The notes under the pieces: model-generated
What the model was told of the DNA's origin: nothing
The model's input: only the letters and a program-made list of their open reading frames with translations
The model's database searches: none
Program-made: the position numbers and the translations under genes
NCBI GenBank assembly: GCA_031290675.1
Contig: JAITNC010000184.1
Span: 1 to 11,047, forward strand
Length of the DNA: 11,047 bases
Source of the DNA: Campylobacteraceae bacterium
Lineage (GTDB): Bacteria; Campylobacterota; Campylobacteria; Campylobacterales; Campylobacteraceae
Reading direction: 5' to 3'
Shown here: positions 2,825-10,898 of the stretch, one piece after another
How positions within the stretch are numbered: the stretch's first letter is position 1
Layout: every line of letters begins with the position of its first letter

Positions 2825-2863
2825 TGGATTGCCACGCCGCGAGTACACGGCTCGCAATGACGG
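2825..2863 (+). repeat. Palindromic interspersed repeat, copy 1
   Basis: A 39-bp element begins TGGATTGCCACGCC and ends CTCGCAATGACGG. Arms ATTGC (2828-2832) and GCAAT (2854-2858) pair, with an inner GAG/CTC. An exact copy lies in inverted orientation at 10299-10337. The following bases (GCAGAGAGGGCAA) are nearly repeated after the copy at 2925. Confidence 0.85.
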
Positions 2864-2883
2864 CAGAGAGGGCAAGAAACACA

Positions 2884-2915
2884 GATTGTCACTCTGCTTC
2901 GCTCCTCACAATGAC
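2884..2915 (+). repeat. Palindromic interspersed repeat, diverged copy
   Basis: A diverged member between two better copies. Its arms are ATTGT (2885-2889) and ACAAT (2908-2912), so the C-to-T change in the left arm is matched by a G-to-A change in the right arm, and TGAC follows as in other copies. Confidence 0.7.
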
Positions 2916-2924
2916 ACATGGGTG

Positions 2925-2962
2925 TGGATTGCCACGCCGCAGTCACAGGCTCGCAATGACGG
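2925..2962 (+). repeat. Palindromic interspersed repeat, copy 2
   Basis: A 38-bp element with arms ATTGC (2928-2932) and GCAAT (2953-2957). It lies exactly 100 bp after copy 1, and the similarity continues into CAGAGAAGGCAA, which suggests a tandem duplication of a unit of about 100 bp. The centre (GCAGTCACAGGC) is shared with the copy at 10737. Confidence 0.85.
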
Positions 2963-3100: not shown

Positions 3101-4405
3101 TTAGTCCCTGATATCCTCAAACTTATACTCTCTCAGCAAATCTCCATTTACAAATACCGCCTCAAGAGCGTTTTCAAAGTCGTCCTTGTCAAGGTCTTGC
3201 ACTATGTATTTGCCTTCAAAAAGTTTTGCGCCTATTCTGCCGCTTTTGCTTTTTTTGGTCGGGTCTGTGGCGGGATTTTTGCAGATACCTTTCCAAACTC
3301 CGCCGACTTTTATCGCACTCGCCTTATACGCAAATCCGTAACTATCGCGGTTGATTTTTTGCAGCAGTGAAGCCCCCATACCGAAGTTCACATTGTCCGC
3401 ACTCCAGCCGCCTCTTGTGATGAGCGACAATATCTTGTCTATCATCTCAAAATTGATACCGTCGCCCCAGATGATGCGTACATTGTTCAAAAGTTTGCCT
3501 CTTGGGCTGGACGTGAAGCCAAAATTTTTAGCGAGGCTCTCCAATGTATATGGTATGAGCTTCAACGGGTCGCCGCTATCGGGTCTGATGACGAGTGTGG
3601 CTTTGCTTTTTATCACTTTTTCTTTCAGCTCTTTGCCCCAGATGTTGTCTACGGCGTTGATGTAGTCATAACTATCGCTCACACACGCCAGCGATACGCC
3701 ATCGCCCGCATAAACTTCAAGCATATTTGAAAATGCGTCCGCTTCTCTCTCCCACGATGTTACGGTGCTGTGTTCCATAGCGGGTATGGAGTAGCCTGCT
3801 ATATCGGCGTTGTAGTATTGTTTCGCGCAGTAGAGCGATATGGCCGTGTCTGTTCCTCTGAAGTTCAAAAGGTGGGCAAGCCCGCCTATCATCGCACTTT
3901 CGCTGCTTGAAACGCCGCGAGAACCAAAATCGTGCAGTTTAAATGCCGTGTCAGGCGTATATTTGCGCATAATCTCTCTGGCTTTGTGGGAGTTTGACGC
4001 TACAGTAGTCGGATACCACACACGCAGCAGAGCAGTTTCTATAAAACTCACGAGCCAGCCAAACCTTGCATCTGTGCTTTGGATACTCACGAGCGGGATT
4101 TGAGAAGGGTAAACGCCGCCCTCTTTGACCGCTTTTATCTTTAGGGGAAAATACCCAAGTTCTCGCAGCGCCTCAAAGCCTTTTTCGTTAAATGGCAATC
4201 CGTGCGCCGTGATGATATCTTTGGCTTCTTTGATATCCTCTTTTGAGTACATTTTGCTGAACATTTTTTTGAGTATATATTGCAGTCCGAAAAACCGTAC
4301 ATACTCTCCGTGTCTTGCTTCTATGTATGCGAAAAGCCCTTCATTTTGGGGATATTGGGCAAAGTGGCTGTATTTATAGCTGTCGCTATCCATTAAAAAA
4401 TTCAT
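3101..4405 (-). CDS. nadV: Nicotinamide phosphoribosyltransferase
   Basis: NadV/NAMPT joins nicotinamide and PRPP to give NMN in the cytoplasm. At 434 residues it is somewhat shorter than the usual 460-490. By comparison with human NAMPT, visible family features are DSYK (8-11, Tyr10 aligning with ring-stacking Tyr18), HDFGSRG (158-164, Phe160 and Arg163 aligning with Phe193 and Arg196), GTDT (184-187, Asp186 aligning with Asp219, which favours nicotinamide over nicotinate), EHS (211-213, His212 as the phosphorylated His247), RPDSGDP (274-280, Arg274 and Asp276), GDG (314-316) and FGMGASLLQK (341-350). All expected active-site residues I could place are present. The start is ATG 4405 with AAAGG about six bases upstream. 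It lies 92 bases after nadM, whose product uses NMN, giving a complete two-step salvage route. It is the last gene before a repeat-filled spacer. Confidence 0.93.
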   Translation of the reverse strand: MNFLMDSDSYKYSHFAQYPQNEGLFAYIEARHGEYVRFFGLQYILKKMFSKMYSKEDIKEAKDIITAHGLPFNEKGFEALRELGYFPLKIKAVKEGGVYPSQIPLVSIQSTDARFGWLVSFIETALLRVWYPTTVASNSHKAREIMRKYTPDTAFKLHDFGSRGVSSSESAMIGGLAHLLNFRGTDTAISLYCAKQYYNADIAGYSIPAMEHSTVTSWEREADAFSNMLEVYAGDGVSLACVSDSYDYINAVDNIWGKELKEKVIKSKATLVIRPDSGDPLKLIPYTLESLAKNFGFTSSPRGKLLNNVRIIWGDGINFEMIDKILSLITRGGWSADNVNFGMGASLLQKINRDSYGFAYKASAIKVGGVWKGICKNPATDPTKKSKSGRIGAKLFEGKYIVQDLDKDDFENALEAVFVNGDLLREYKFEDIRD

Positions 4406-4431
4406 TTTAAACCTTTCTGGGTTTATTCAAA

Positions 4432-4462
4432 GCCCAAGCTCTCCGCTTCGGGCGCATTTTTT
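4432..4462 (+). terminator. Hairpin plus T-run between nadM and nadV
   Basis: GCCCAAGC (4432-4439) pairs with GCTT-C-GGGC (4445-4453, one bulged C) around TCTCC, followed on the plus strand by TTTTTT (4457-4462). Read this way it is an intrinsic terminator for rightward transcription, yet no rightward gene ends here. On the minus strand, the direction of the operon, the T-run is upstream and only a weak TTT follows, so at most it would attenuate or stabilise the nadM-nadV mRNA. A smaller GAGG/CCTC hairpin lies beside it (about 4470-4482). Confidence 0.4.
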
Positions 4463-4497
4463 ACTTTAAGGAGGCTAATCCTCAAAAACCACAAAAG

Positions 4498-5475
4498 CTA
4501 AACGTTGCTCAGCTTTCTTATGATGTGGAAATGGTCTTCAAACATCATGGAGCGGTTGTCTTTGACCTTTGATAGGGGTAGCCAAAAGGCCTTTGCGGCG
4601 TCATCGCCACCTTTGACTTTTGGAAGTTCGTTCTCTTTGAGCTGTAGTAAAAAAGCGTGAGTTATGGTGCGTCCTCGTGTGCTTCGGTCTGGTCTGTCAA
4701 AAACTTCTGTCTTTTTGATGCTGCCCAAAAGAACGCTTTTTGGAAGCTTTATCCTTGTTTCCTCTTTGAGCTCTTTTATCGCACTGTCCTGAATAGAAAG
4801 TCTGCCGTCCAAAAACCCACCCGGAAGCGCATACAAGCCTTTGCCCGGGTATCCGCCTCTCACCACAAGCAGCACGTGAGCGTTGCAGATAGTAACACAG
4901 TCCGTAGTTACAAAGATGGGTTCATAAGGGGCTTTACTCCACGCCTCTTTCATCTTGACATGGTGGCGGTACTCCTCAACCCTCACTCCCCACGCCTCGC
5001 TTGTCATAAAATCCTGTACGATTTTTATCACGTTTTGGGGTAAAAACTTGGTTGGTATCTTGCCGTTGTACAGCTCTTCTCTTATCGTTGTTGCGCTGAT
5101 ATTTTGAAAATTTTCAACCGTTGTCAGCGTCCATTGGGGGAAGTGCTTGAGGTAGTAACTGCTCTCATCTTTCTCGTGTCCTACGATGTATACATTGTCG
5201 TATTTGTAGTCGTATTTTGAAACTTTTTCCTGTATCTGCGCAAACCACAAGTTGTCATCAGTCGGATAGTCTGCGATGTCTTCTATGAACGTGGCGTACG
5301 GCTCTAACATCTCATGTATGAGCGTTACGGGGAAGGGATTTTTGATATTGCGGGCTTCTACTGCCGAGCCTATCAGCACGAGCGTGTCGCCTATCTCTCT
5401 TGCTTTTGCCAAAAGGTGCAGATGTCCGTTGTGCAGGGGTTGGAAGCGCCCTATGTATATAGATAGATTTTTCAC
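4498..5475 (-). CDS. nadM: Bifunctional NMN adenylyltransferase / Nudix hydrolase
   Basis: The N-terminal half (about 1-165) is a nucleotidyltransferase that makes NAD from NMN and ATP. It shows GRFQP (9-13), the HNGH signature (15-18) and ISATTIREE (126-134), the C-terminal ATP-binding signature of the NadM family. The C-terminal half (about 185-325) is a Nudix domain, in this fusion family usually an ADP-ribose pyrophosphatase. Its box spans 220-242. The KELKEE core (234-239) keeps the metal-binding glutamates, but Leu226 stands where the first conserved Glu is expected and Lys234 replaces Arg, so the hydrolase may be altered. The start is GTG 5475, overlapping the preceding stop by four bases (GTGA), which argues for translational coupling. 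The same domain order and pairing with nadV is known from Synechocystis. Confidence 0.92.
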   Translation of the reverse strand: MKNLSIYIGRFQPLHNGHLHLLAKAREIGDTLVLIGSAVEARNIKNPFPVTLIHEMLEPYATFIEDIADYPTDDNLWFAQIQEKVSKYDYKYDNVYIVGHEKDESSYYLKHFPQWTLTTVENFQNISATTIREELYNGKIPTKFLPQNVIKIVQDFMTSEAWGVRVEEYRHHVKMKEAWSKAPYEPIFVTTDCVTICNAHVLLVVRGGYPGKGLYALPGGFLDGRLSIQDSAIKELKEETRIKLPKSVLLGSIKKTEVFDRPDRSTRGRTITHAFLLQLKENELPKVKGGDDAAKAFWLPLSKVKDNRSMMFEDHFHIIRKLSNV

Positions 5476-10298: not shown

Positions 10299-10337
10299 CC
10301 GTCATTGCGAGCCGTGTACTCGCGGCGTGGCAATCCA
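10299..10337 (-). repeat. Palindromic interspersed repeat, inverted exact copy
   Basis: The reverse complement of this 39-bp stretch equals 2825-2863 at every base. Arms lie at 10304-10308 and 10330-10334. It sits between the small truncated frame and the promoter at 10363. Confidence 0.9.
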
Positions 10338-10362: not shown

Positions 10363-10391
10363 TTTGATTTTGTTGGATTTTTTGTTATAAT
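10363..10391 (+). promoter_or_regulatory. Near-consensus extended -10 promoter of the small peptide locus
   Basis: TATAAT (10386-10391) is a perfect -10 box preceded by TGT (10383-10385), the extended -10 element. TTGATT (10364-10369) is a fair -35 box with a 16-base spacer, and the spacer is T-rich as in Campylobacterota promoters. Initiation is expected at about 10397-10399, leaving a leader of some 64 bases before the ATG at 10462. Confidence 0.7.
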
Positions 10392-10396
10392 AAGGT

Positions 10397-10555
10397 ATTA
10401 AAGGATTTATTCCCTTGCGTTCTTAGTCCTTACCGTCCAAGACGGGAAAGGTGGTAAAAATATGAAGTTTATTCTATTCCTGCGTTTGCAGGTGAGAGTA
10501 AGTTTCAAGGTTAAGGCACTTAGAAAAATCTTAACCTTGATTAAGCTCTTTTAAT
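10397..10555 (+). promoter_or_regulatory. Highly structured transcript of the small peptide locus
   Basis: Several pairings stand out. ATTAAAGGA at the predicted 5' end (10397-10405) can pair with TCTTTTAAT over the stop codon (10547-10555), with one G-U, a 5'-3' long-range closure. CCGTC (10433-10437) pairs with GACGG (10441-10445). TTACC (10430-10434) can pair with GGTAA (10453-10457), covering part of the ribosome binding site. CCTGC and GCAGG form a hairpin with loop GTTT (10479-10492). TCAAGGTTAAG (10505-10515) and CTTAACCTTGA (10530-10540) form a perfect 11-bp stem inside the reading frame. Some of these are mutually exclusive, which would suit an mRNA that switches between inactive and active folds. 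A non-coding RNA of about 180 nt, such as a 6S-like RNA, would also explain the folding. Confidence 0.5.
10462..10554 (+). CDS. Candidate 30-residue basic hydrophobic peptide, type I toxin-like
   Basis: ATG 10462 to TAA 10552-10554 encodes 30 residues starting MKFILFLRLQVR and ending ILTLIKLF. I count eight Lys/Arg, no Asp/Glu and about eighteen hydrophobic residues. Residues 8-18 alternate strictly between polar and hydrophobic, and the whole could also form an amphipathic helix, so membrane association is likely. AGGTGG (10449-10454) lies seven bases before the ATG, an excellent ribosome binding site. A strong promoter precedes it and a GC-rich hairpin starts four bases after the stop. Size, charge, hydrophobicity, structured leader, 5'-3' pairing and a possible antisense promoter recall AapA-type toxins of Helicobacter pylori, which are also about 30 residues. 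I claim no sequence homology. The frame could be fortuitous if the locus is a non-coding RNA. Confidence 0.45.
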   Translation: MKFILFLRLQVRVSFKVKALRKILTLIKLF

Positions 10556-10557
10556 CT

Positions 10558-10577
10558 AGTGGGGCGAAAGCCCCGCT
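10558..10577 (+). terminator. GC-rich GAAA-loop hairpin after the small peptide gene
   Basis: GGGGC (10561-10565) pairs with GCCCC (10570-10574) around a GAAA tetraloop, extended by AGT/GCT with one wobble to eight pairs. Only CTT follows, so it is a weak classical intrinsic terminator but could mark or protect the 3' end of the transcript. Confidence 0.5.
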
Positions 10578-10736
10578 ATCTTAAAAACTTAATCGTATTG
10601 TATCATATTTTCTTGGTTTTGGTTGCTGTGGTGGGTGAAAGTGTAAAAAAGAGAAACCCATCAATCCAAAATAGCACAAGTTGTAACATTCAAATTAAAA
10701 ATCTACAAAGTCATAACACGAAAGGGCAAGAGCTGA
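10578..10736. other. Spacer between the peptide locus and the right repeat cluster
   Basis: I find no supportable gene here. One forward frame passes through with a hydrophobic stretch (IVLYHIFLVLVAVVG), but its only start candidate, GTG 10559, lies in the preceding hairpin and has no ribosome binding site. The notable content is a minus-strand -10 box at 10602-10597. Confidence 0.5.
10597..10607 (-). promoter_or_regulatory. Candidate antisense promoter facing the small peptide gene
   Basis: On the minus strand TACAAT (10602-10597) is preceded by TGA (10605-10603), an extended -10 element. No good -35 box is visible. Transcription from about 10590 would run leftward through the hairpin at 10577-10558 and then antisense to the stop codon and the 30-codon frame. 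Confidence 0.4.
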
Positions 10737-10770: not shown

Positions 10771-10831
10771 ACAAAAGGGAACGCTCTGCATGACACTGGG
10801 TGGGGGGCTTCGCCGCTTGTCTATCAAAAGA

Positions 10832-10898
10832 GTGGATTGCCACGTTCGCAAGCTCACTCGCAATGACGGAATGGGGGGGGTTCGCCTCGCAATGACGG
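10832..10898 (+). repeat. Palindromic repeat copy and an adjoining half copy
   Basis: 10832-10869 is a full element with arms ATTGC (10836-10840) and GCAAT (10860-10864) and a different centre (ACGTTCGCAAGCTCACTC). 10881-10898 repeats only the right half (TTCGCCTCGCAATGACGG), an incomplete copy separated by a run of G. Confidence 0.8.

Follow-up and report, generated by a model that had tools for sequence, protein, structure and literature searches.

A small cationic peptide gene facing a predicted antisense promoter: a probable type I toxin-antitoxin-like family in the Campylobacteraceae

The locus c1, found in the genome of a Campylobacteraceae bacterium, is probably a chromosomal type I toxin-antitoxin-like unit, and it belongs to a family of which we found no description in the open-licence literature searched. 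The best reading of its organization is that the layout resembles that of the Fst systems while the regulation resembles that of the AapA systems. The window, by which we mean the whole stretch of 11,047 nucleotides that was analysed, is contig C118 of a source genome of 1.44 Mb that is 81% complete. Judged by the YgiQ protein, the best named relatives are Campylobacterales or Epsilonproteobacteria MAGs, 66% identical, in a comparison from which records close to this genome may be missing.

The predicted mRNA of c1 lies on the forward strand. An extended -10 element, TGTTATAAT, in which TG precedes TATAAT, occupies positions 10383 to 10391 (TATAAT at 10386 to 10391); a promoter scan picked it up as well, together with a weak -35. 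With the mRNA start assumed at 10397, the leader extends to 10461 and measures 65 nt. A Shine-Dalgarno sequence, AGGTGG (10449 to 10454), stands 7 nt 5' of an ATG at 10462, which opens a frame of 30 codons, MKFILFLRLQVRVSFKVKALRKILTLIKLF, that ends in a TAA at 10552 to 10554, is backed by related peptides, and contains eight K/R and no D/E. Directly after the stop, sequence and folds show a GC-rich hairpin, TAGTGGGGC-GAAA-GCCCCGCTA (10557 to 10578). The earlier note on this DNA had described the consensus -10, the ribosome binding site, the frame with its charge, and the GAAA-loop hairpin correctly; its 64-base leader is one nucleotide short. In minimum-energy folds a local hairpin at 10428 to 10451 (CCUU..CCGUC/GACGG..AAGG) masks part of the Shine-Dalgarno, which agrees with the suggestion that part of the ribosome binding site can be sequestered. 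The frame itself is covered by two hairpins supported by folding and covariation, ORF hairpin 1 (10464 to 10506) and ORF hairpin 2 (10507 to 10538), the latter also visible as an inverted repeat at 10505 to 10540. On the reverse strand, a motif scan found a convergent extended -10, TGATACAAT (10597 to 10605), which the earlier note did not contain and which would serve a candidate antisense RNA; the post-stop hairpin also lies near the predicted 5' end of this RNA. The antisense -10 is preceded, at a distance of about 40 nt on the same strand, by an inverted repeat, GGTGGGT..ACCCATC (10630 to 10662), that surrounds a T6 tract (A6 at 10645 to 10650 on the forward strand). A terminator scan recognized no terminator inside the locus; its one listed site, some 220 nt beyond the post-stop hairpin, is a forward-strand hairpin with a T-rich tail (10799 to 10814), which could be the end of the sense transcript or a chance match, 0.8 being expected by chance.

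Covariance models and individual judgement of the hits gave ten loci in six genomes, all of one family and spanning two genera. Four of the ten are in the source genome (c1 to c4), where DNA similarity identified c2 (C154, 91% identical to c1) and c3 (C56, 70%). A covariance model built from c1 to c3 with the long-range pairs left out (R1) matched G003:C53 (E 1.6e-12) and G007:C73 (8e-7) in a set of 14 genomes from the genus. The model R2, built from these five founders, added G000:C217, which is c4 (1e-9), G011:C11 (2e-7), G006:C86 (1e-4), and G007:C11 (1e-3). The widest searches used R3, which contains one opposite-strand row of c1 and into which G023 did not enter; R3 added the tenth locus, G023:C22, from the other genus (E 1.4e-5), and at E <= 0.01 matched 8 of the 153 family genomes, six of which were kept. 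The models match the opposite strand of c1, c2, c3, G003, and G007:C11 as well, because the hairpins of the members are self-complementary.

Membership of the weakest loci is partly a matter of judgement. Fourteen R2 stretches from the genus were considered; four (G000:C217, G011, G006, and G007:C11) were kept and ten were dropped because they offered no frame or downstream organization like that of the members (G009, G012, two in G004, G007:C143, G007:C20, G003:C58, G003:C54, G006:C25, and G000:C20). Six of the R2 genus matches beyond the founders and the opposite-strand match of c1 reached E <= 0.001, and four of these were kept; since the other two, G009 (8e-5) and G012 (2e-4), were dropped, E-values near 1e-4 are not decisive. 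Six weak R2 matches in the genus, including one to the opposite strand of c2, were left out of inspection. Candidates in G018, G024, G170, and G174 and in G197, G379, G207, G472, and G353 were inspected and rejected. Outside the family, a sample of 398 genomes of the order gave no credible match among those inspected; for R2 the inspection covered two of eleven other order genomes, the remaining nine having weak matches, and the strict filters used lose weak members. Searches of plasmid and phage DNA, and tblastn of two peptides against plasmids, returned nothing useful; an 18-mer of the leader is present in nineteen viral contigs, in which R1 had no match at E <= 1. A match to a known non-coding RNA family, which the earlier note had named as an argument against a peptide gene, was not seen, as no Rfam gathering score was reached in the window or in nine loci. 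Seven of the peptides had no match in NCBIfam or Pfam, a null result that is uninformative because AapA1 has none either; peptides this small lack family models.

The RNA of c1 is highly structured. The 184 nt from 10397 to 10580 fold at -61.3 kcal/mol, where shuffles that preserve dinucleotides average -41.5 +/- 3.6 (z -5.4; none of 200 shuffles was as good), and five members fold with z from -3.7 to -6.7, with G023 folding less strongly (z -2.7). When five members are aligned with MAFFT, 87% of the cells pair across the four helices counted, namely the leader hairpin (helix 1, 79% of cells paired), the two-part ORF hairpin 1, ORF hairpin 2, and the post-stop hairpin (helix 4, 97.6%). The leader hairpin is present in the minimum-energy folds of c1 and c2 and has a longer stem in the G003 locus. 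Nineteen pairs are changed on both sides, against a shuffled mean of 7.4 and with none of 500 shuffles reaching that number, while slid versions of the structure gave at most 5 such pairs and a structure-fitted alignment gave 21; the counted structure is the RNAalifold consensus of the same alignment, so the count leans towards itself. Fifteen of the 61 consensus pairs were left out, nine that would connect the start region with the antisense -10 and six that lengthen the post-stop hairpin. Across eight loci, the predicted mean pairing of the Shine-Dalgarno region (-16 to -5) is 0.48 to 0.71.

The frame is conserved along with this structure. Seven loci (c1 to c4, G003, G007:C73, and G023) have an ATG frame of 29 to 33 codons that ends just 5' of the post-stop hairpin, and six of the seven have a G-rich Shine-Dalgarno, that of G023 being weak. 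G006 has a frame of 31 codons that is otherwise open, with ATT at the start position. A cationic open frame, with 7 to 13 K/R and 0 or 1 D/E, is found in eight of the ten loci. Of the traits that the earlier note had proposed to look for in homologues, the charge pattern is thus present in those eight, compensatory pairing in the alignment, and an ATG start in seven of ten. Frames that are open and proline-free with at most one acidic and at least seven basic residues arise in 0.035 to 0.24% of base shuffles (seven members) and in 0.02 to 0.45% of hairpin-keeping shuffles (eight members), and in each of the seven members checked both remaining forward frames are closed. In six of eight members a reverse frame of the ORF is open from the second codon onwards, in c3 it is open throughout, and in G006 it is broken; 6 to 9 K/R are encoded in it, and an ATG occurs in none of the eight. 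We attribute this open basic reverse frame to the self-complementarity of the ORF hairpins, and it means that basic composition alone is no proof of coding. The eight open frames have in common the core [FVLI][KR][ILVF][KRSNA][LFC][KR][IVA][KR], whose rate of 0.2 to 1% in shuffles is a guide only, as the motif was built from the same sequences. MAFFT aligns the two subfamilies, which begin MK.. and MRVDF.., on this core, and the alignment spans the two genera. A separate motif search with CAARNTTTAGCCNTNCTTG matched 95 of 153 family genomes, and these matches were discounted, as 11 of 13 inspected sit in a stop-free frame of at least 76 codons.

Two copies have lost the frame. In G011 a stop follows after 19 codons, and the second hairpin is now a near-perfect inverted repeat of more than 20 nt, close to whose loop the premature stop falls (L079); this repeat draws weak Rfam hits to microRNA families, below gathering scores. 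G007:C11 has a broken frame and no start codon at the expected place, and its fold is not better than that of shuffles (z -0.7). The situation that the earlier note had regarded as damaging, a conserved RNA structure with an interrupted frame, thus occurs in one locus of ten, G011. We read both as decayed toxin copies, and the loss of the frame in two copies fits relief from a costly peptide. Against the toxin reading, hairpins and antisense box persist in G011 without the frame and G006 has ATT, and both also fit a function at the level of RNA. It is conceivable, though we think it unlikely, that the loci specify a structured non-coding sense/antisense RNA pair, with the ORF a by-product of purine-rich inverted repeats, a reading that those two loci and the nearly as open and basic reverse frame would favour and for which the CJnc180/CJnc190 pair of antisense small RNAs of Campylobacter jejuni, as presented in PMC8687705, is a precedent. 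Such a pair would leave unaccounted for the seven ATG frames of similar length and charge that stop before the hairpin, their rarity even where shuffling preserves hairpins, and a peptide core common to two genera; moreover, G007:C11 lost the fold together with its start and frame. Like CJnc180/CJnc190, c1 would have two opposed small RNAs, here predicted, in the same bacterial order; unlike that pair, for which the consulted portion of the paper mentions no toxin peptide, it has a conserved ORF.

The opposing promoter motif is better conserved than the sense one. By the criterion of TGN plus TATAAT with at most one mismatch, an extended -10, TGNTATAAT, faces back at the ORF in seven of nine loci, exactly in six and with one mismatch in c1, and lies 36 to 44 nt past the stop or, in the broken G011, past the nominal end of the frame. 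Background loci give 0.07 such matches per 80 nt, and of shuffles made from each 110-nt region, 4 to 11% contain one. G006 has TATAAT without TG at this position, and the weak boxes of G007:C11 and G023 were picked by eye. In comparison, the sense TGNTATAAT is suitably placed only in c1 to c3, three of nine loci, with no counterpart in the six others. A promoter scan that requires a -35 hexamer did not list the antisense promoter at the locus. Upstream of the opposing -10, a run of 5 to 7 A (a T-tract on the antisense strand) begins 36 to 49 nt past the TG in nine of ten loci, an arrangement found in 1.5 to 12% of shuffles. In c1 to c3 and G007:C11 the T-tract is enclosed by an inverted repeat with arms that co-change, as judged by eye, and in subfamily B it lies beside a conserved CAAG-TTTAGCCGTT-CTTG element (L046, L078, L079, and L192). 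Past the antisense -10 of G007:C73 and c4 are overlapping stems, CGCAAG/CTTGCG and GCCGTT/AACGGC, which, judged by eye, might fold into a pseudoknot that has an A-rich loop. From these motifs we read the region past the post-stop hairpin as an antisense promoter with an upstream element.

A convergent antisense gene over the 3' end of the toxin gene, as in the Fst type, is predicted here from the motifs, and this layout is closer to that of Fst-Sm/srSm of Streptococcus mutans, as described in PMC3543317, than to that of AapA/IsoA. Unlike the Fst systems (Fst of pAD1 and Fst-Sm/srSm), c1 has no recognized bidirectional terminator and no direct repeat family, none being found in 10380 to 10680; the hairpin sits near the antisense start with no U-run after it, and the peptide and the phylum are different.

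The comparison with AapA/IsoA of Helicobacter pylori concerns regulation. According to PMC6733600, AapA3 is a peptide of 30 residues, the full-length AapA3 mRNA is inert through 5'-3' pairing, and IsoA3 is an antisense RNA of 80 nt with its -10 box within the toxin ORF. Like AapA/IsoA, c1 and its relatives have a basic peptide of about 30 residues with its own promoter, several chromosomal copies in the same order, a highly folded mRNA with local sequestration of the Shine-Dalgarno, and a cis antisense RNA, the last two here predicted. The 5'-3' pairing on which the link to AapA was based is a tentative feature of modelled folds. The pairing of the 5' end with the stop region that the earlier note had predicted does appear in minimum-energy folds of exactly 184 nt for c1 and c2, and yields to an extended post-stop hairpin when 10 more 3' nt are included. 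In seven of eight loci the 5'/3' duplexes have energies no better than those of shuffles, and G006 is the sole locus whose duplex matches the best 4% of shuffles. In favour of the pairing, G003 and G007:C73 have minimum-energy folds that join the leader to bases past the post-stop hairpin, and the fold of c4 joins the Shine-Dalgarno itself to such bases.

Sequence kinship with AapA was not recognizable. Strong matches to AapA1, the peptide sequence being that given in PMC10537873, were confined among the 398 genomes of the order to genus g54 of another family, f13 (best E <= 3e-6), and the source genome held no candidate. In ten loci with AapA matches R2 gave nothing credible, its sole match, at E 0.09, being on the opposite strand. 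Seven of eight AapA loci were inspected, and all seven have an opposite-strand TATAAT inside the toxin ORF, unlike the loci described here, in which the strong antisense -10 is downstream of the stop hairpin, although a weak second promoter within the ORF is conceivable. The C-terminal Lys-Arg that, according to PMC10537873, is conserved in AapA and needed for its toxicity is absent, as the eight peptides end in LF, LK, FF, or RF. The earlier note had offered a choice between an analogue in a different lineage and a new member of the AapA class; the former is supported and the latter is not, given the missing genomic candidate, the blindness of R2 to AapA loci, and the different place of the antisense -10. 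That c1 is itself an AapA locus is therefore quite improbable in our estimation: peptide length, charge, cis-encoded control through mRNA folding, membership in the Campylobacterales, the leader or Shine-Dalgarno pairs with the 3' end in G003, G007:C73, and c4, and a loose LKIS/FKIS resemblance between AapA1 and the peptides of c3 and G003 would speak for it, and to the points just named against it are added the shuffle-like duplexes and the lack of an alternating core in the two AapA-type peptides tested. The locus may work like AapA, but its sequence does not support kinship. By description rather than by sequence, it can also be likened to aapB/IsoB of H. pylori (HPnc4170/HPnc4160, NikS), which according to PMC8035401 has a small ORF, an antisense RNA (here a candidate), and a T-repeat upstream of that RNA.

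The peptides also differ from AapA1 in the way their residues are arranged, having an alternating, beta-type amphipathic pattern in place of the transmembrane helix of AapA1. The 170-degree (beta) moment exceeds that of residue shuffles in six of eight peptides (p <= 0.04; p 0.08 to 0.09 in the other two), with no excess in AapA1 or one AapA-type relative, and the helical (100-degree) moment is above shuffles in none of the eight. Triplets of the basic-hydrophobic-basic type exceed residue shuffles (p < 0.05) only in c3, so the claim of alternation rests on the 170-degree moment and the common core. We tentatively entertain, as a minority view of these data, that the peptides form a new class of type I toxin, beta-strand amphipaths of alternating basic and hydrophobic residues (FKFKLKIK, FKLRLKIR) without a transmembrane helix, in which the in-frame hairpins and the peptide pattern are one design and the antisense promoter with its phased T-tract is the main control. 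Under that proposal, AAG/CTT-like codons would pair with one another, so that the inverted repeats that silence the mRNA would also write the alternation of K with L or F. Alternating basic and hydrophobic residues are the pattern of synthetic beta-type antimicrobial peptides, and by this analogy the loci might instead encode a small cationic peptide that is secreted or resides in the membrane, in a bacteriocin-like or housekeeping role, the opposing promoter being incidental. We regard this as very improbable, given that the flanking ORFs of eight loci had no common neighbour by eye and that the opposing -10 is the better conserved of the two.

The surroundings of the copies were also surveyed. 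An interspersed palindromic repeat, CATTGCGAG...TGGCAATCC with its complement, flanks c1 (window positions 2826 to 2958, 10303 to 10336, and 10834 to 10894) and occurs near c2 (L002, 508 to 534) and c3 (L003, 243 to 398), with none in the 601 bases around c4; intergenic regions rich in repeats may be where the copies are located. Elsewhere in the window, on the reverse strand, a gene for a NAMPT-like phosphoribosyltransferase adjoins one for a cytidylyltransferase-NUDIX protein (3101 to 5475), likely an NAD salvage pair, and an open-ended long ORF of many degenerate repeats (for example SNISLGNNATIST), resembling a surface protein, occupies positions 3 to 2366. Upstream of the tenth copy (L251, G023:C22) is a protein that matches prokaryotic viperin (PADLOC pVip, E 5e-69), and downstream of the broken copy of G011:C11 (L250) is one that matches Abi_2 / AbiD.

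Returning to the reading that we prefer, of a type I toxin-antitoxin-like unit, we infer two transcripts. A self-contained mRNA from about 10397 to at least 10580 would encode the 30-residue cationic amphipathic peptide, which would probably harm its own producer cell, most likely at the membrane. This mRNA would be mostly silent through its own structure, with the Shine-Dalgarno partly in the local hairpin and the ORF mostly in two hairpins. From the convergent promoter past the stop hairpin, an antisense RNA would start at about 10590 and run leftwards, complementary to the 3' part of the mRNA and, if long enough, to the ORF and leader. Pairing of the two would neutralize the toxin by blocking translation and would deliver the duplex to RNase III. 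If confirmed, the loci would constitute a peptide/antisense family organized unlike AapA/IsoA in the same bacterial order, with four copies in one genome, and the members in two genera would provide a set in which the co-evolution of RNA folding, antisense control, and the peptide can be tested.
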